Shown here piece by piece: positions 25,518 through 35,813 of a stretch of DNA of 64,000 nt (its first letter is position 1; the number at the start of each line of letters is the position of its first letter). The stretch comes from Bythopirellula sp. (GTDB lineage Bacteria; Planctomycetota; Planctomycetia; Pirellulales; Lacipirellulaceae), in the NCBI GenBank assembly GCA_028285205.1, contig JANQQA010000266.1, forward strand, positions 33,559-97,558, given 5' to 3'. The position numbers and the translations under genes were made by a program. A model generated the notes under the pieces. The model searched no databases. It saw nothing but the letters and a program-made list of their open reading frames with translations, and was not told the origin of the DNA.

Positions 25518-27083
25518 ATGAGCTTCAACACCGAAAACAATCATTCTGGCAACTTGGCGGGCCTGAGCCCGGCGGAATGCCTCCGCCTGTTGGTCGAGCA
25601 ACGTCAAAAGTGGCTCCTGCCAACGATGGTCTGTGGAGCGTTGGCACTTGGTTACTCCCTGGTAATGTCGCGGTACTGGGAAGCGACGCAAGGATTCGTG
25701 GTTCGCCCTGAAGTGTCTGGTTCCTCGACCAACGAAGTGGGTAAGTTCGCCGACCTGTACCAGATGCGGACCTTTCAAGAGACGATTTTGGAACTCGCCA
25801 AGAGTCCTCAAGTGATTGCGGCCACGCTGAAGGCAGTGGAACAGGCCGAGACTGGCGAACCTGCGGAGGCGCCGTCTGCGACAGCGATCGAGAAGATGCG
25901 GAAAAGATTGAGTCTGTTGCCGCCAGGCGGGGCGGAGTTTGGCAAGACTGAGGTTTGCTATCTGCAGGTAAAAGACACCAACCGCCAGCGGGCACTAAAG
26001 CTGGTCGCCGAGTTTGGCAGACAGATTGATCGAAGACTGCACAGCCTCCGGACCGAAAAATCTCGCAGCCTGCGGAATGAGCTACAGCAGCAAGTCGCCC
26101 TGGCGGAAGAAGCTTTGGAAGCCGAGACGGCCCGCCTGGCGAAATTCGAAGCGCAGGTGGGGGCCGACTTGGGCGAACTCCGCATGCTAAACGCCTCCAA
26201 CAGCGGACAGAGTGATCTTCGCCAGCAAGCAATCCGACTCAACGACGAGCGACGAGCCGCAGAACTAGCGACTCGCGAATCCAGCCAACTGCTAGAGGTG
26301 CTGCAATCAGCTCGCAACGAACCCGAGCAGCTAATCGCCATGCCCAACAGCCTCCTGACTTCGCAACCGACGCTCCGTCGACTCAAGGACGGTCTGGTCG
26401 ATGCCCAACTCCGAGTAGCACGTCTGGAGGGCACGCGCACCGTCGATCACCCGCAGGTCAAGGCAGCAAACTCGGCAGTGGAGTTTGTCCGCCAAGATCT
26501 ACACCGGGAGCTTGCAGTGGCCATTCGTGGAATTCAGGTCGAAATCAAAATTGGCAACAGCCGTGCCGCAAAACTCGATCAGCAGTACGCCGATGTGCAG
26601 CAGCGCCTGAGTCGGTTGGCCCAGCTACGTGCCGGCTACGCCAATCACATGTCCGCCGTCGATAACAGCCGTCTGGTGCTCGACCGGGCTCAAAAGCAGC
26701 TTGGGCAGGTAAGCTCCCAATTGGCGGCATCCAGCAGCTCCAAGTTGGTCACTCCGATCGATCAGCCCGAGACGGGGCCCTACCGTGCCGGCCCAGGACG
26801 TTCAACGATCGTGTTGCTCGGCACGTTTGGTGGCCTAGTCTTGGGAATCGGGTGGGTATTCCTGACCGTTACTCCTGCGGCGGAGCGTGAACCCGAATTG
26901 GGAGTCACACCACAAACCCAACCTACTACGCGAACCAGCGGCAACGAGGCAGCCGCGCGACCGGTAGTGGAAATCATGCCGGTTCCGCGTCATGTGCCGA
27001 ATTTGCCACCCCACATCGCGGCGAAGATCGCAGAGATCGTGAAAGCACGCGAATCGGTCGTGTCGAGTGATCGCTGCGTTTAG
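25518..27083 (+). CDS. Wzz/GumC-like polysaccharide chain-length determinant protein
   Basis: N-terminal TM 'RQKWLLPTMVCGALALGYSLVMSRYW', long coiled-coil, C-terminal TM 'STIVLLGTFGGLVLGIGWVFLTV'; no kinase domain. Confidence 0.8.
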   Translation: MSFNTENNHSGNLAGLSPAECLRLLVEQRQKWLLPTMVCGALALGYSLVMSRYWEATQGFVVRPEVSGSSTNEVGKFADLYQMRTFQETILELAKSPQVIAATLKAVEQAETGEPAEAPSATAIEKMRKRLSLLPPGGAEFGKTEVCYLQVKDTNRQRALKLVAEFGRQIDRRLHSLRTEKSRSLRNELQQQVALAEEALEAETARLAKFEAQVGADLGELRMLNASNSGQSDLRQQAIRLNDERRAAELATRESSQLLEVLQSARNEPEQLIAMPNSLLTSQPTLRRLKDGLVDAQLRVARLEGTRTVDHPQVKAANSAVEFVRQDLHRELAVAIRGIQVEIKIGNSRAAKLDQQYADVQQRLSRLAQLRAGYANHMSAVDNSRLVLDRAQKQLGQVSSQLAASSSSKLVTPIDQPETGPYRAGPGRSTIVLLGTFGGLVLGIGWVFLTVTPAAEREPELGVTPQTQPTTRTSGNEAAARPVVEIMPVPRHVPNLPPHIAAKIAEIVKARESVVSSDRCV

Positions 27084-27139: not shown

Positions 27140-28552
27140 ATGACGTTCCTACTATCGCTTTTTGGCTTAGTTGCCCTGATTTGGGCACTCATCTACGCGA
27201 GGCATGGCTCGCTGCTGGTGAGCGGAGCGATCTTCGTGGTGGTTGGCTACGTCTTTAACCATCATGTGTGGCACATGAGCGTAGGGCCCGTTTCGCTGAC
27301 ATTGGGGCGTGTGCTGTTGGCGGCCTTGGTCCTACTGTTTGCCTGGCGTTGGAAACAGGGCCACATCGAACTGCGTCCTTTGACCGGCTGCGATTGGCTC
27401 GTCGGATTGTTGGTCGGGTATCTAACGCTTCGTTGTATGTGGACGCCTGCCGCTATTGGAGAAGCGTCCAGCGTTGGGCCGACATGGAGGTTGATCGCCA
27501 GCTTTTGGATGCCGGCCACGCTATACTGGATCGTTCGCAACGCGGAATTTAGTGAACGCGTTTGGAAAGCGATGCTCGCCTGCCTGGCGGCACTAGGTGT
27601 TTATCTAGCGCTGACCGGCCTAGCTGAAGTCAACCAACAGTGGTGGGCAGTCTTTCCGCGCTTTATTGCCGATCCAACCCTCGGCACGCACTTCGGTCGC
27701 GCCCGCGGGCCGGCGTTGATGTCGGCCAGTTTGGGGGTGTTCCTGGCGATCTGTTTCTGGGCAGCCTGGTTCCTGTGGGCCAAAGTTAGCCGTGCACAGC
27801 AGTTCCTACTGCTGGGGGCGATGGCGCTGATGGTCGTCGGCGTGTATGTCACCTATACACGTTCGACCTGGTTAGGCTTGGCTGGTGGGCTTGCCATAAT
27901 TCCTCTATTACATCTTCCGCGGTCGTGGCGGCCTGTGCTGCTGACGGGGATGCTGCTGGCCGGCTTTGTCGGAGCGATCGGGCTGGGCGATAAAGTCGTC
28001 AACATGAATCGCGAAGACACTGATGGTTCGGCCGAGCATTCGGTTTATCAGCGGGCCTCGTTCTTTCATGTCTCGATGAACATGTTCCGCGATGCTCCGC
28101 TGCTGGGTTGCGGTTTTGGGCGATTCTACGACTGCAAGTTGCCGTACCTGGCTGACCGCACTCAGCGGATCGAACTGGAATCCATTCGGAAACTAGATCA
28201 TCACAACACGTTTCTGAGCTTGCTCACCGAGACGGGTGCTATTGGACTGACGCTGTTCGCCGCCGTCCTGGCTGCCTGGTGGCGAGCAGCATGGCAACTC
28301 GCTAGAAATGCCGATGCGGAGAGCTGGATGCGTGCCCACGGACTGTTCGCTCTGGCGACGCTCATCGCGTACTTGGCCAGTGCAGTGTTCCACGATTTGA
28401 CACTTTCCCCCAGCGAGCAATGGTTGTTGTATCTGACGACAGGTGTTACTGTTGGGTTGCAGAGCTTGTTGCGGACTAGAGAGGCCGCAGCTCAGCCGAT
28501 CAAATCAACTTTGTTGGCTCAACCAACTTCGGGTGTCTGGGCTAGTCATTGA
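27140..28552 (+). CDS. O-antigen ligase/polymerase-like membrane protein
   Basis: Multi-spanning; 'YTRSTWLGLAGGLAIIPLL', 'MFRDAPLLGCGFGRFYD', 'LDHHNTFLSLLTETGAIGLTLF' Wzy_C-type motifs. Confidence 0.88.
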   Translation: MTFLLSLFGLVALIWALIYARHGSLLVSGAIFVVVGYVFNHHVWHMSVGPVSLTLGRVLLAALVLLFAWRWKQGHIELRPLTGCDWLVGLLVGYLTLRCMWTPAAIGEASSVGPTWRLIASFWMPATLYWIVRNAEFSERVWKAMLACLAALGVYLALTGLAEVNQQWWAVFPRFIADPTLGTHFGRARGPALMSASLGVFLAICFWAAWFLWAKVSRAQQFLLLGAMALMVVGVYVTYTRSTWLGLAGGLAIIPLLHLPRSWRPVLLTGMLLAGFVGAIGLGDKVVNMNREDTDGSAEHSVYQRASFFHVSMNMFRDAPLLGCGFGRFYDCKLPYLADRTQRIELESIRKLDHHNTFLSLLTETGAIGLTLFAAVLAAWWRAAWQLARNADAESWMRAHGLFALATLIAYLASAVFHDLTLSPSEQWLLYLTTGVTVGLQSLLRTREAAAQPIKSTLLAQPTSGVWASH

Positions 28553-28568
28553 AATAGGTTCGCTACAC

Positions 28569-29366
28569 GTGCCGCCGGTGATAACGCTATTCGGAATGAA
28601 GATCGATGCGGTCGATATGAAGACGGCCGTTCAGCGCGTGATGCAATGGTGCGCGGAACCTCGCGATGAGCCGTGCCGCTACGTGGTGACGCCCAATGTC
28701 GATCACGCGGTCATGTTCCAGACAGACGATCGCCTACGCCGTTCGTACGAAGGCGCGGCGATGGTGCTCGCCGATGGCGCGCCGGTCGTCTTGGCTTCGC
28801 GACTGCTGCGGAAGTCTTTGCCCGAACGAGTTGCGGGGAGCGATCTGGTTCCCGCGCTGTTCGAAGCAGTGTCCAGCGAACGTGAATCCGCGAGTGGTCC
28901 GCTTCGCGTCTTCTTGTTGGGCGCAGGTCCGGGAGTCGCAGAGCGGGCGGCTGAGGTAATCCACCGGCGCTGGTCAAGTGTCGAAGTGGTCGGTACGCTG
29001 TCGCCACCCATGGGTTTTGAGCATGATGAGGACGAGAATCAACGAATCCTCGATGCCGTCGCGGCATGCCAGCCTGACTTGGTTTTGATCGGGCTAGGCG
29101 CGCCGAAGCAAGAATTGTGGATAGGCCGTTATGCCGATCGTTTGGAAGCAAAAGCCGCGCTGTGCATTGGGGCAACGATCGACTTCCTGGCCGGTGAGAA
29201 AAGCCGTGCGCCGCGCTTGATGCAGAAGCTCGGTTTGGAGTGGGTGCATCGCATGGCGACTGAACCGACTCGGCTCGCGAAGCGGTACGCGCGCGACGCC
29301 TGGATTTTCCCCCGACTAGTGTGGCGTGAATGGCGCGACGGCAGCGCGACATCCCCCGAATCGTAA
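28569..29366 (+). CDS. WecB/TagA/CpsF family glycosyltransferase
   Basis: 'TPNVDHAVMFQTDDRLRRSYEGAAMVLADGAPVV', 'DLVLIGLGAPKQELWIGRY', 'CIGATIDFLAGEKSRAPRLMQKLGLEWVHRMATEP'. GTG start at 28569 preferred. Confidence 0.92.
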   Translation: MPPVITLFGMKIDAVDMKTAVQRVMQWCAEPRDEPCRYVVTPNVDHAVMFQTDDRLRRSYEGAAMVLADGAPVVLASRLLRKSLPERVAGSDLVPALFEAVSSERESASGPLRVFLLGAGPGVAERAAEVIHRRWSSVEVVGTLSPPMGFEHDEDENQRILDAVAACQPDLVLIGLGAPKQELWIGRYADRLEAKAALCIGATIDFLAGEKSRAPRLMQKLGLEWVHRMATEPTRLAKRYARDAWIFPRLVWREWRDGSATSPES

Positions 29367-29423: not shown

Positions 29424-30686
29424 ATGTCAGACCGCCACGCCATTTGCTTGTGTATCGACGGACTTCGGGCTTCGGCGTTGGGCACCTACGGTAGCTCTGC
29501 TTGTCCCACGCCTCAACTCGATGCACTCGCCAGTCGCGCGGCAGTTGTTGATTGGATGTTCGCAGATTCGCCGACGCGCGAAGGGTTTTATCACTCCGTT
29601 TGGCAGGGGACGCACGCGCTGCGCCGCGCGGGATTGTCAGCGCGACAGAGTGATCCGCCGTCGATTCTCCGTCGGCTGAGCGAGTCTGCATCCAGGCAAT
29701 TGCTGGTGACCGATGAGCGGAGTCTGGTTGAAATAGCCGATGACTTGCCGTATGACCTGGCGGCGTTCGTAGAAAATCACGCGACCAGTTCCGCCGACGA
29801 AATGGAGCTGACGTGCCTGGCACGATTTTTCTCGCAAGCAATCGAGCAGATCGTCGTGTGGCGGCAGAGCTTGCAGAAGACAAACAGTCTGATCTGGTTA
29901 CATAGCCAGGGGCTGGCCGGTCCGTGGGATGCACCGCTGCCGATGCGAGAGCGACTGCTCGAAGAGGATGATCCAGCTGCTGCCGAGTTTGTCGAGCCTC
30001 CCAGCGCCTTGCGAGATATCAACGACCCGGACGACGTGCTGGCGTTTCGCACTGCGTACGCGGCGCAAGTCATGGTTCTAGACGCGTGCCTAGGTGCATT
30101 CGTCGAAACGATTGAGGAGTTGTTCGCTGGCAGTGAAACTCTGCTGATGTTGTTTAGCGCGCGAGGGTATTCGCTCGGCGAACATGCATCCGTCGGAATC
30201 GAGTGTAGAGAACTGTACAGCGAAGGCTTGCATCTGCCGTGGCTCCTTTTGCCGTGCGGCAATAGGACTCCCCTGCCCCGCCAAATGTCGTTGTCACAGC
30301 CTGCTGATATCGCTGCAACGCTGCTCGATTGGTTTGGAATCGGCGAATCCCTCCGAGAGACGGACGGGTTGTCTTTGCTGCCGAATGGCGAGACATCGGG
30401 CAACGACACGCGTCAGTTGATTGCGGCCGTTGGCGAGTCTGGTGAATCAATGATCCGCACACCTGTCTGGTCGTTAATCGAGAGGGCATCCGCCGACATG
30501 TCAGCCTTCGCGCAGCTATTCACTAAGCCTGACGATCGCTGGGAGAGCAACGACATCAGCGAGCTCTGTCCCGAGGTGGTAGATCAGCTTCGCAGCGAGT
30601 TGCAAAATCTTCAGTCGCTAAGCCAAACAGACGAGCCGCTGCCGCTAAGGCCGCAGAGCGAGAGTCTATTGGAAGCCGTCCGGTAA
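29424..30686 (+). CDS. sulfatase/alkaline-phosphatase-fold protein, probable pseudo-enzyme
   Basis: 'CLCIDGLRASALGTYGSSACPTPQLDALAS' sulfatase fold start; 'DSPTREGFYHSVWQG' where CSPTR is expected; 'MLFSARGYSLGEH' where SDHG..LGEH is expected. Confidence 0.75.
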   Translation: MSDRHAICLCIDGLRASALGTYGSSACPTPQLDALASRAAVVDWMFADSPTREGFYHSVWQGTHALRRAGLSARQSDPPSILRRLSESASRQLLVTDERSLVEIADDLPYDLAAFVENHATSSADEMELTCLARFFSQAIEQIVVWRQSLQKTNSLIWLHSQGLAGPWDAPLPMRERLLEEDDPAAAEFVEPPSALRDINDPDDVLAFRTAYAAQVMVLDACLGAFVETIEELFAGSETLLMLFSARGYSLGEHASVGIECRELYSEGLHLPWLLLPCGNRTPLPRQMSLSQPADIAATLLDWFGIGESLRETDGLSLLPNGETSGNDTRQLIAAVGESGESMIRTPVWSLIERASADMSAFAQLFTKPDDRWESNDISELCPEVVDQLRSELQNLQSLSQTDEPLPLRPQSESLLEAVR

Positions 30687-30771: not shown

Positions 30772-31764
30772 TTGGCTAAGCTGGGACTTATGGCGTTTGC
30801 AGCTGGAACAGATCGACGTTTAGGGGCAGTCTACTATTGCTGCGCGATGTTCGTTTGCGTTTCTCTGTTGGCGACGCCAACCCAAGCGGTGCCATTGTTG
30901 CCCGATTTGGTTTCTTATGCGAGCGAAGAACTGGAGTTCATGTACGGCGGAGAGTTCGACACATCGGATACGCCTGGGAGAGTCTTTTATCGTTTCGACG
31001 TGGCGATTGCCAACTTTGGTGCGGGGCCGTTTCAGGTGCTGCACGAAACGGATCTCACCGCTCAGACGCAGGATATCTATCAGCAGGTTTTCGACAGTGA
31101 TGGCGGTCTCACGACGACGTTGATGGGCACGTTTGATTATCAGGATCCACCCTTTGGCAGAATGGCGCTCGCATCGCTAGCACGGTACAACCTACGTGAG
31201 GTCACCGCAAACGACGGCGTTGGCGACGTCGTGGCCACGTATGACAAGACCTCGCATGCGGTCGTCGATTCACTGCCAATTGACCTTTCGCTGCCCGACG
31301 CACCGACGACGCCTGCCTACCGAAGCGGTTATGCCAATCCCTTGGGAGTCTCGATTGGGTATGCCGATCTCTATGGCCGTAACATTCCCGAGCAGCGGAT
31401 CGACGTGACTGGTGTCCCGTCGGGCCAATACTGGTTGGAAGTTGTGATCGACCCCTTGGAATACGTGCAAGAGACCGACGACACGAATAACACGACACGG
31501 ATTCTGGTCGATCTGGACATCCCGACCACCGGCGACTACGACGGAGATTTCGATGTCGATGGCGCCGATTTCACGACGTGGCAGCGCGGTGAGTCGCCCA
31601 ACGCCCTGGCGGACGGAGACTTCTCATCATGGAAGTCAAATTATGGCACGACCTATCCGCCGCTAGCATCGTCTTCGTTGGCAGCGATTCCGGAGCCGGC
31701 TACGGCACTTCTGTTCGCGACGGCGTGCGTGCTAGCATTTGCGTCTCGCCAGACCACGCGGTGA
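30772..31764 (+). CDS. lysyl-oxidase-like PEP-CTERM protein with dockerin-like loop
   Basis: 'LPDLVSYASEELEF', 'FDVAIANFGAGPFQV', 'IPEQRIDVTGVPSGQYWLEVVIDPLEYVQETDDTNN'; 'GDYDGDFDVDGADFTTWQRGESP'; tail 'IPEPATALLFATACVLAFASR'. Confidence 0.75.
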   Translation: MAKLGLMAFAAGTDRRLGAVYYCCAMFVCVSLLATPTQAVPLLPDLVSYASEELEFMYGGEFDTSDTPGRVFYRFDVAIANFGAGPFQVLHETDLTAQTQDIYQQVFDSDGGLTTTLMGTFDYQDPPFGRMALASLARYNLREVTANDGVGDVVATYDKTSHAVVDSLPIDLSLPDAPTTPAYRSGYANPLGVSIGYADLYGRNIPEQRIDVTGVPSGQYWLEVVIDPLEYVQETDDTNNTTRILVDLDIPTTGDYDGDFDVDGADFTTWQRGESPNALADGDFSSWKSNYGTTYPPLASSSLAAIPEPATALLFATACVLAFASRQTTR

Positions 31765-31886
31765 CACGCTTAGGTTTGATTTGATCTGGAGACATGCCAG
31801 CAATCTGCCTACAATCCGCCGCCCTTCTCGGGCGACGGTGGGCGCCACCGTCTCTATCACGTAGCTCTATTGTCAGACGGTCGAGC

Positions 31887-34800
31887 ATGGTCGGACACGG
31901 ACGTCCGATAACGCTGAAGCTTCGAGTTTGCCGACTTGCCGCCGCGCAAATCGGTCCGGTCTCGTCGCGAAATTTTTTCAGCGTGCTGCTGCTGTTTCTA
32001 ATCGCGCTCACTGCGACAACGCGATGTGCTGCGGACGAAAAGACCGTTCGATTGCGTCTGGCGTGGGGCAGTGGCACAGCAGCCAAGCAGCGCTGGAACG
32101 GAACCATCGCCGTCGAAGGCGGAGTGCTGACGCAACTGCAACCGCTGGGCATCGAATCGGACGCGGCCGTGGCCATGCGAATTGACGGCAGTCGGTTGAT
32201 CGTCAACCCGCTCGAGAAACGTGGCTTCGACGGTTGCGACGTGACGGTGCAGGCCGACGAGCAGGCATTAGTGAGGGTGGAGCTGCGCAGTGATCAGCAA
32301 CTTCAGCAGACGGTGTTCGAGGCACCGCTGGCGGAGATTCTCGCCACCCAGCTCCAACGGCCGCTCGACGAGTCGGGGAGTTACTTCTTGGCTCGACGCA
32401 GCCCAGGCGATGTGTTGCGAGTGTTGCCGACTTGCGAGCACTATGTGTTTTCACCCGGTGAACAGTGGGAACTCAAGTTGCAGCCCGACTTGGCGGCCGA
32501 GTTGGCAAATGGGCCAGTCGTCCTGGAGCTACGTTTGCGGGCGACCGGTGCAGAGAAGTCGAGTTGGCAGGCAAGTCGGCAGATCACGGACGTCGCGCAG
32601 CTTGCCGCAGGCGTGACCTTTGGAATGACGAGTCCAACGATTGAAGGCGCCTATCGTTTGTCAATCGAGGCGCGCGCGCAGGAGGGGCTGGCCAAAAGGT
32701 TTGTTCCAGGGCAACAAGCTCGGACAATCGCCCGGCGCGAAATCGAGTATGTCGTGATCGATCCCGACGCCCAGTTAGCTCCGCTGACTGACGAATGGTC
32801 GCCTGTGCTGACGATCGACCCCGCGAACCCGAGCTGGTGGCAACGATGGCCGGCATGGGCGCAGGTTCCCCGGCTTCCCGGGCTCACCCCCGGAGCGGTC
32901 GGGAACATCCGACCCGTTGTGCGACCAACCCCGTCCGGAGACCTGATGGAACTCCCGCCTGCGCCGACAGGCGGCGATCCGTATTGGCAGTCGTACACGC
33001 TGCCTGTGCGCGATCCCGGCCAGCCTCATATGGTGGAAATCGAGTATCCCGTCGGCGTTGAGCAGTCACTCGATGTCGCCCTGGTGGAACCTGACGCAGC
33101 TGGCAAAGTGCTCAACGCCGAGCAGACGGGAAGCATGCGCAGTGTTGCGGCTGCGAGCGAGAAGGATGGCGAAACTTCCGTGTATCGCTTCCCGATTTGG
33201 CCACAGACACGTTCGCCCCAACTGCTGGTCGTCAACCGTCACTGCAACGCAGCCGGCCAATACGGAAAAATCAGGCTGCTGCGTCAGGAGAGCACGAACG
33301 CGCCTCAGGTCGCGCCGACTGCCGACGCGCCCAGCCATCGAATGGTCGCGGGCTACGTCGCGCAGCCGCGATTTGCCGAGGGCTTCGGCGCCGCGCAGAC
33401 GCTCGACTCAGCGAGTGGTCTGAGCGTGCAAAGCTGGTCGACTTTTTTGGCGGGCACGCGACGACTCGCGCAGGCGCTGCGCTACCAAGGTTACAACTCG
33501 ATGATGCTCACGGTAGCCGCAGATGGTAGCTGTCTGTATCCCAGCCAATTGCTCCAACCGTCGCCACGCTACGATACCGGTTTATTGGCAGCCAACGGCC
33601 AGGATCCGTTGCGCAAAGATGTGTTGGAGATGATACTCCGTATCTTTGATCGCGAAGGCTTGCGCGTGATACCTACGCTCCAGCTAGCGAGTCCGCTGCC
33701 AAGATTGGAATCGCTTCGACAGGCCAGCGACTCAGGCGAGACAGGCATCGCTTGCGTCGATCACCGCGGGCAGACTCTATGGGCACACGCAACTGACGAA
33801 TCCGGATTCGTACCTCATTACAATCCGCTCAATCAACGTGTACAGTCGGAAATCGCCGAACTCGTGCGGGAGCTAACCGCCCGATATGCGCATCACCACG
33901 CATTTGCCGGCGTTGGATTGCAAGTCTCTGGCGATGGTTACGGTCTCATGCCTGGCCTCCTGAGTGGTCTCGACGACCATACGATGGGTAATTTTTACCA
34001 AGCCGCGAACTTGCAGCTACCCAACATTGAAGGCGATCGCTTTTTGCAGCGCGCCAACTTGTTGCTTGGCGAACACCGCGAAGATTGGAAACGGTGGCGG
34101 CAAGACGGGATCACGCAGCTTTATCATCAACTCGCGGAGCAGGTAGCCAGCGCCCGCAGCGATCTGCGGCTGAGCCTCGTGACCGACGAGCTCTATGCCG
34201 GTCCGCAGCTCCGACGACGTGTGCGTCAAGCGATCGACGATCCAGCGCAGTTCCGTGAGATTCTCCCGGACCACGCGGTCGATCTCGCTCAAATTGCCGA
34301 GCATCCGGCGATCGATGCCTTGCTCCCCCACACGCTCAGCGCCACGGATTCGTTGCAGCGACAGGCGATTCAGCTTCGCATCAACTCTGCGTCAACGTAC
34401 GCGGAACTCCTCCCGGCGGAGCAATCGGTCGCGAACTTGTTCATCCGAGGGACGGAGGACTTCCGTCTACCCTCGTTCGATGCACAGAGCCCCTTTGGAG
34501 CCCCTCAGACGTTCTTGACCGTAAGTATGCGGCACAAACGTACGGGGCCCGCTGGCCGTTTCCAATTGATGAAAACTCTGGCCGCGAGAGATTCGACGCT
34601 GATTGTCGAAGGAGGGCATGCTCTGGACCTCAGCGAAGACCTGGACGCACGGGAGATCCGACACGCGGTTCGTCAGCTGCCCCGTGATGCGGAGGTTCGC
34701 GAGCAGCGAGTTCAGCCGATGACGCTGCGAGTCTATCGTGCGGAAAATTCGACCTTCGTCGTCCTTATCAACGAGTCGCCATGGCAAGCCGACGCACAGC

Positions 34801-35813
34801 TTCAGCTCGTGCCGTCGCAGGCCAGTGAGTGGCGGAAGCTGGGCAGCGGCACCGTCGCGGCTACCTCGCAATTGGCCGGCAACTTAGGGGCTGGCAGTCA
34901 GGCATGGAACGTCAATTTGCAGCCATTCGGTTTGCAAGCGTGGGAATTTGACGATCCGCGACTTCGCGTTGGTGATCTCGTCGTGAATGTCGCGGATTTT
35001 GCCAAAGCGGAACTGAAGCAGCGCCTGCAAGAAATGGAATCACGCGCGGGAAATCTAAGCATTCAGCGTCCGTATTCCAAGCTGCAGAATCCAGGTTTTG
35101 AGTTGCAGGATGGAGATGTTCGCATTGTCGGCTGGCAGCCTCGTCAGGGAGCGCTCGGCTCGATCTCGATTGATAACGCCAACCGACGTTCGGGCAGTCA
35201 TTCGCTACGACTTCAGAGCGAAGATCGGACCGGGGTGGCCGTCCAAAGTCATTTGTTCCCCGTCCCACAGACGGGGCAGCTAACCGTCAGCGCGTTTGTC
35301 AGCGTCCAACACTTCGGCCCAGACGCCCAGCTCCGAATAGCGGTGCAAGATCAGCAGGACGGTCGCGAGTATCAGCAATATGCGCTGCTCGGCAGCTCGC
35401 AACTAAAAGGCGATACCTGGACACGATTCGAACTTCCGCTAAACGATGTACCGGTGGACGAGAACATGCAGCTGCGGTTGCAGTTCCACCTCGTTGGCAA
35501 AGCGGAAGTGCTCGTCGATGACGTCGAGTTGCTCGATCTACGGTTCGACGACGCAAGGCGGCTGACCCTCGTGAAGCGCATCCACGGCGCGAACATGCTC
35601 TTGGAGCAGGGTCAGGTGGTCGATTGCCTGCGCGTCGTCGATGACTATTGGTCGCGCTATTTGCTAGAGCATGTACCGCCGACAGAAGCAGTCGAGGCGG
35701 TCGCCACAAAGCCAGCCACTGTGGTGGAAACCCAGCCTGAGGCGACCGAGCCGAAGGAAGACAAAGGCTTTGGCTCACGCGTGCGCGGCTGGGTACCGAA
35801 GCTCTGGCGCTGA
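31887..35813 (+). CDS. large secreted protein with GHL10-like TIM-barrel region
   Basis: Signal/TM 'NFFSVLLLFLIALTATTRCAADE'; central 'LAQALRYQGYNSMMLTV...REGLRVIPTLQLASPLPRLES...VGLQVSGDGYG' barrel-like; C-terminal carbohydrate-binding-like beta region. Confidence 0.55.
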   Translation: MVGHGRPITLKLRVCRLAAAQIGPVSSRNFFSVLLLFLIALTATTRCAADEKTVRLRLAWGSGTAAKQRWNGTIAVEGGVLTQLQPLGIESDAAVAMRIDGSRLIVNPLEKRGFDGCDVTVQADEQALVRVELRSDQQLQQTVFEAPLAEILATQLQRPLDESGSYFLARRSPGDVLRVLPTCEHYVFSPGEQWELKLQPDLAAELANGPVVLELRLRATGAEKSSWQASRQITDVAQLAAGVTFGMTSPTIEGAYRLSIEARAQEGLAKRFVPGQQARTIARREIEYVVIDPDAQLAPLTDEWSPVLTIDPANPSWWQRWPAWAQVPRLPGLTPGAVGNIRPVVRPTPSGDLMELPPAPTGGDPYWQSYTLPVRDPGQPHMVEIEYPVGVEQSLDVALVEPDAAGKVLNAEQTGSMRSVAAASEKDGETSVYRFPIWPQTRSPQLLVVNRHCNAAGQYGKIRLLRQESTNAPQVAPTADAPSHRMVAGYVAQPRFAEGFGAAQTLDSASGLSVQSWSTFLAGTRRLAQALRYQGYNSMMLTVAADGSCLYPSQLLQPSPRYDTGLLAANGQDPLRKDVLEMILRIFDREGLRVIPTLQLASPLPRLESLRQASDSGETGIACVDHRGQTLWAHATDESGFVPHYNPLNQRVQSEIAELVRELTARYAHHHAFAGVGLQVSGDGYGLMPGLLSGLDDHTMGNFYQAANLQLPNIEGDRFLQRANLLLGEHREDWKRWRQDGITQLYHQLAEQVASARSDLRLSLVTDELYAGPQLRRRVRQAIDDPAQFREILPDHAVDLAQIAEHPAIDALLPHTLSATDSLQRQAIQLRINSASTYAELLPAEQSVANLFIRGTEDFRLPSFDAQSPFGAPQTFLTVSMRHKRTGPAGRFQLMKTLAARDSTLIVEGGHALDLSEDLDAREIRHAVRQLPRDAEVREQRVQPMTLRVYRAENSTFVVLINESPWQADAQLQLVPSQASEWRKLGSGTVAATSQLAGNLGAGSQAWNVNLQPFGLQAWEFDDPRLRVGDLVVNVADFAKAELKQRLQEMESRAGNLSIQRPYSKLQNPGFELQDGDVRIVGWQPRQGALGSISIDNANRRSGSHSLRLQSEDRTGVAVQSHLFPVPQTGQLTVSAFVSVQHFGPDAQLRIAVQDQQDGREYQQYALLGSSQLKGDTWTRFELPLNDVPVDENMQLRLQFHLVGKAEVLVDDVELLDLRFDDARRLTLVKRIHGANMLLEQGQVVDCLRVVDDYWSRYLLEHVPPTEAVEAVATKPATVVETQPEATEPKEDKGFGSRVRGWVPKLWR

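Follow-up and report, generated by a model that had tools for sequence, protein, structure and literature searches.

The window, by which we mean the whole 64,000-nucleotide stretch of Bythopirellula sp. DNA analysed here, encodes a sulfatase-like protein whose status as a pseudoenzyme is well supported by comparison within its family. Our computations show that the sulfatase and phosphoesterase residues are lost, and they establish the fold, the ancestry and the constraint on the family. On balance, we lean slightly towards reading it as a fold-intact, unexported pseudoenzyme with a remodelled pocket, kept through the class Planctomycetia and presumably serving a ligand-sensing or regulatory role.

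Table 1. Features of the pseudo-sulfatase gene and its neighbours (positions in the window; residue numbers refer to the window protein).
Feature	Position	Strand	Evidence
Chain-length determinant-like protein	25518..27083	+	weak NCBIfam match, E 9.7e-10
Wzy_C O-antigen ligase/polymerase-type protein	27140..28552	+	PF04932
WecG/TagA/CpsF glycosyltransferase, immediately upstream	28443..29366	+	PF03808
Pseudo-sulfatase ORF, 420 aa, no signal peptide	29424..30686	+	homologues start at same point; AF2 pLDDT 94.1
D12-G13: first metal Asp kept, second lost	29457..29462	+	column table
DSPTR (48-52); R52 (29577-29579) is the nucleophile column	29565..29579	+	alignments, column table
Y56, column of the Arg of CxPxR	29589..29591	+	column table
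D97, column near the active-site Lys of sulfatases	29712..29714	+	column table
H160 to W168-D-A-P171; catalytic His of PHxP (column 165) lost, Ala here	29901..29936	+	column table
S245-A-R-G248 replacing (S/T/A)DHG, then intact L251-G-E-H254	30156..30185	+	column table
K368-PDDRWE-x-N376, clade-specific C-terminal motif replacing LYDLxxDPxExxN	30525..30551	+	column table
GHL10-type protein, 1339 aa, N-terminal hydrophobic segment, probably exported	31794..35813	+	PF02638

The original prediction of an intact frame of the sulfatase kind is borne out: the product matches the Pfam Sulfatase family PF00884 at 37.1 bits, above the gathering cut-off of 25, and is distant from the NCBIfam sulfatase equivalogs (33–37 bits against cut-offs of 433–900). 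Structure prediction had been proposed as a check. With a family alignment of 56 sequences as input, AlphaFold2 (AF2) gave a model of pLDDT 94.1 and pTM 0.93, and the top Foldseek matches in the PDB were all sulfatases or phosphonate monoester hydrolases (PMH; E 5e-19 to 1e-16). Judged by this model, the protein has the complete fold of the sulfatase/alkaline-phosphatase (AP) superfamily. The whole fold, including the C-terminal subdomain, is common to the window protein and the formylglycine (FGly) sulfatases of family S1 (choline-sulfatase, S1_7, S1_16), as are the landmarks TP..D.LA, LGEHG and E..x.P; what the window protein lacks in comparison are the Cys/Ser nucleophile, the Arg of CxPxR, the Asp and His of DHG, the His of PHxP and the signal peptide. 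The best PDB sequence match is to PMH/PehA (2w8s, 2vqr; E 9.6e-8) and covers the C-terminal half. PMH has FGly and a full metal site, and the PehA model NF045661 scores the window protein at 33 bits against a cut-off of 900.

Since strand 1 of the model starts at residue 4 and homologues begin at about the same point, the N-terminus is too short to hold either a membrane anchor or a signal peptide. Two sulfatases of the same genome (L091, L092) bear signal-peptide-like N-terminal extensions that the window protein does not have, and the Thr-type relatives L124, L126, L139 and L142 have no signal peptide. Sequence and model thus indicate a protein that is probably unexported and cytosolic, and this location is probably ancestral.

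Which residue occupies the place of the nucleophile is decided by alignment. The original prediction had set DSPTR at the CSPTR position and read the FGly Cys as replaced by Asp; the string is present, but its assigned position does not hold. In sulfatase L088, Cys lies 23 residues past the T of TP..D.LA and 10 ahead of the G of TG. We took T29 of the TP..D.LA block and G62 of the W.G block as anchors in the window protein, and since T29+23 and G62-10 both reach R52, the nucleophile column is R52, four residues downstream of D48. Against the Thr-type relatives, the profile alignment runs through this stretch without a gap and pairs T with R52 and R with Y56. Another profile alignment, against FGly sulfatases, sets PTR on PTR only with a four-residue gap that deletes the Cys. 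Two-sided counting and the ungapped alignment together rule out DSPTR as a CSPTR motif. Indeed, relatives within the genus carry DSPHL, DSPTL or DSPSL, DSPTR being unique to the window among them, so that the resemblance to PTR is peculiar to the window, and the Asp of the string (D48), raised earlier as possibly conserved, is so only in part (32/66).

All conservation counts come from a column table over 66 Pirellulales members. The nucleophile column holds Leu in 39 of the 66, Thr in Gemmata-type members and Thr or Cys in relatives with an intact motif; no Cys occurs there in the columns displayed for Pirellulales members, and no Cys, Ser or Thr is fixed as nucleophile across the 66. Column 56 is Tyr in 46 of 65. 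Hence R52 and Y56 stand in the window protein where an S1 FGly sulfatase has (C/S)xPxR with a Cys or Ser nucleophile.

The metal site has fared similarly. As originally read, the N-terminal metal pair is DG, not DD, and SARG..LGEH replaces SDHG..LGEH. D12 is kept in 60 of 65 Pirellulales members, and position 13 is Gly in 46 and Arg in 14, with D or T in the intact-motif relatives. Three very divergent members (L169, L170 and L172, family f15) have D12 also replaced, by Glu. The Asp column of DHG holds Ser, Ala or Leu; the ARG triplet is conserved not as such but as xRG, with R247 in 54 of 65; and the His column of PHxP (165) is mixed. Altogether, three of the four metal-ligand columns of DD/DHG are lost across the 66 members, and where S1 FGly sulfatases have DD, D(N/H)G and the PHxP His, the window protein has DG, AR and A165.

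Phosphoethanolamine (PEtN) and phosphoglycerol transferases combine a nucleophilic Thr with an Asp and a His that bind metal. The window protein likewise lacks this combination, residue 52 being Arg and 246/247 holding no Asp-His pair. It is thus very improbable that the window protein is an active member of that transferase branch with an intact alternative Thr site, the exception that the original prediction had itself named: the Thr type of its closest relatives and the T52, R56, H165 and D246 still present in Gemmata-type members would speak for it, but in Pirellulales the Thr column is mostly Leu (Arg here), and the Asp and His of DHG and the His of PHxP are gone. In the Gemmata-type branch, an active site of this kind may persist.

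In place of the lost residues, others are strongly held. H160 is present in all 66 Pirellulales members, W168 in 65 of 66, D169 in 64 of 65 and D97, which is also Asp in the Thr-type relatives, in 62 of 66; overall, the residues at pocket positions are 83–100% conserved, the mean over all columns being 47%. By analogy with known sulfatases, D12, D97, H160, W168-D169 and R247 would sit at or near the ends of the active-site strands, where they may cluster in a pocket. This conservation, and the location of the gene in an EPS locus, would also suit an enzyme with new chemistry, its AP-fold pocket (D12, D97, H160, R247, W168-D169) re-tooled, for example, as a transferase or lyase that needs no metal and has an EPS precursor as its substrate. 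We consider this unlikely, given that no nucleophile candidate is fixed and that the residue set shifts between orders (N12/D160/Q247 in Gemmata-type members, mostly E or D at 160 in others), as a catalytic centre would seldom do. The most class-conserved new feature is not the pocket but the C-terminal motif KP(D/E)DRW. Its form K368-P-D-D-R-W-E-x-N376 is strongly conserved in Pirellulales, and the motif, absent from the outgroups examined, marks the pseudo-family.

In a tree of 42 sequences, all Planctomycetia members form one clade (100/100) with Pirellulales nested within it (100/99), and subgroups of the clade track the family groups of the genomes, so that the family seems to have been inherited vertically through the class. 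As sister group (99/94), the tree gives PTxPxR-type proteins belonging to other Planctomycetota classes, four of them Thr-type and one Cys-type (L123). The closest intact-motif relatives are thus mostly unexported PTxPxR Thr-type proteins rather than FGly/Cys sulfatases. Such Thr-type relatives retain D12, T52, R56, H100, H165, D246 and H247; they have D97, W168 and the YG and TP..D landmarks in common with the window protein but, unlike it, no KPDDRWE. Five of them (L124, L126, L128, L139 and L142) are uncharacterised sulfatase-like proteins, most of which lack a signal peptide. The authors of SulfAtlas pointed out that oxidation of Thr would not yield formylglycine and that PF00884 mixes such proteins in (PMC5066984).

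The Gemmata-type members retain T52, P54, R56, H165 and D246, have N12 and Q247, and are without H100. In loci L149–L153, Thr52, Arg56, His165 and Asp246 kept beside N12 and Q247 give the picture of a half-eroded active site. Thr prevails in the sister group and is also the residue of the Gemmata-type branch, so it is simpler to assume an ancestor with Thr, and Thr is likelier than Cys as the ancestral nucleophile. The replacement of an FGly Cys by Asp, as originally proposed, therefore fails at both ends: what aligns there is R52 (Leu in most relatives), and the ancestor was probably of the other type.

When one genome per species was scanned by pattern, 254 relatives came up, and the 80 that were retained all lie in records named as Planctomycetota except L223, which sits on a short contig of a metagenome-assembled genome named Candidatus Nealsonbacteria and is probably a misbinned Planctomycetota contig. 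All 36 Pirellulales genomes of the class sample match at E <= 1e-54; beyond the class, the search of the phylum gave the Cys-type L123 as its top match (5.2e-51). Among the 60 nearest genomes, 58 have a member, and the two without it (G002, G035) are 79% and 86% complete. One open frame spans at least 330 profile columns in 65 of the 66 Pirellulales members, and pairwise dN/dS among close members, for pairs with unsaturated dS, is 0.05–0.34, so that the dN/dS check proposed at the outset returned purifying selection. Because it is family-wide, the loss of catalytic residues is due neither to chance nor to sequencing error, and by these sequence measures the disabled protein is kept by purifying selection across the class. 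A pseudogene in the course of decay could explain the lost catalytic residues and the very divergent copies of some lineages (long branches L167, L168 and L174), but it is contradicted by the open frames, the dN/dS values and the invariant motifs, and we give it next to no credence. The original suspicion of a pseudo-enzyme is thus upheld.

What the gene lies next to bears on what the protein may do. As originally described, it directly follows polymer assembly genes (chain-length, Wzy and WecG). Between it and the GHL10 gene lies a 330-residue protein matching lysyl oxidase (PF01186, E 1.3e-9; 30772-31764, + strand), of which no homologue occurs near the gene in the other loci compared. Neighbours were counted with marker profiles, since clustering of raw ORFs is inflated by shadow ORFs. 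In the window's own family, WecG lies upstream in 26 of 30 loci and GHL10 downstream in 25 of 26; the WecG linkage also occurs once each in f3, f13 and f15, and the GHL10 linkage in f2, f3, f7, f12, f13, f15, f16, f18 and f19. Of 60 genomes, 58 carry the GHL10 gene, in some cases at another site. Across families f21–f26, which represent the other orders sampled, the pseudo-sulfatase gene is near neither EPS nor GHL10 genes, and its neighbours, namely HEAT-repeat, DUF1570, MoxR/DUF58, UVR-motif and acyltransferase proteins, include no shared partner and have no common theme. Orthologues are thus linked to EPS loci in the window's family and, by one genome each, in three others; for the rest of the class this does not hold, and an EPS-specific function as a class-wide rule is ruled out, since synteny fails outside Pirellulales. 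An EPS role in Pirellulales is plausible, although it may be secondary or wrong, because in other orders the gene lies away from EPS and GHL10 genes with no shared partner.

Such a pattern could also reflect a structural or housekeeping scaffold unrelated to EPS, the EPS neighbourhood in Pirellulales being a genomic accident held by synteny. Class-wide conservation, the unrelated neighbours outside Pirellulales and the prominence of KP(D/E)DRW over the pocket would fit this; the near-invariance of H160, W168, D169 and D97 at pocket positions in Pirellulales and the recurrence of the WecG linkage in four Pirellulales families argue against it, and we hold it to be improbable.

The nearest precedent, by analogy and with no claim of membership, for non-catalytic control of envelope polysaccharide synthesis by an AP-superfamily protein is YejM (PbgA/LapC), which is thought to be without proper catalytic placement and regulates the synthesis of lipopolysaccharide (LPS) (PMC7773988). 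YejM is membrane-anchored with a periplasmic, LtaS/EptA-like domain, whereas the window protein is not membrane-bound: with strand 1 at residue 4, it has no N-terminal transmembrane domain of the YejM type, and the YejM model is not among its NCBIfam matches.

For the sensing or regulatory pseudoenzyme that we favour, we infer ligand, partner and EPS role along the following lines. The protein would derive from a probably Thr-type sulfatase-like hydrolase or transferase, has come down through Planctomycetia and is kept by purifying selection. In Pirellulales it has lost the nucleophile, the motif Arg and the catalytic His together with most of the metal ligands, and D12, D97, H160, W168-D169 and R247 would form a remodelled pocket, which may bind a ligand such as a phosphorylated or lipid- or nucleotide-linked sugar. 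The C-terminal KPDDRWE motif might contact a partner, and the protein could thereby sense a precursor and adjust polymer assembly.

In a survey, nine sulfatases of Lentisphaerae and Planctomycetes that have lost a positively charged residue were considered possibly inactive (PMC5066984). Our literature search returned no paper describing the present family and nothing relevant on pseudosulfatase. Pfam-based annotation would label the gene a sulfatase, as it passes the PF00884 cut-off. Planctomycetes have very large sulfatase sets, and a near-universal member without catalytic residues would mislead both sulfatase counts and function predictions. Tentatively, and against our own expectation, these proteins could be class-wide cytosolic sulfatase-fold pseudoenzymes, passed on vertically since the ancestor of Planctomycetia, that act as a ligand-sensing switch (or with new chemistry) in surface polymer assembly, with Gemmata-type intermediates recording the stepwise loss. 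The family itself runs by degrees from a Thr-type site still half intact in Gemmata-type members to full replacement in Pirellulales, which would allow the loss of catalysis and the gain of a new role to be tested step by step.
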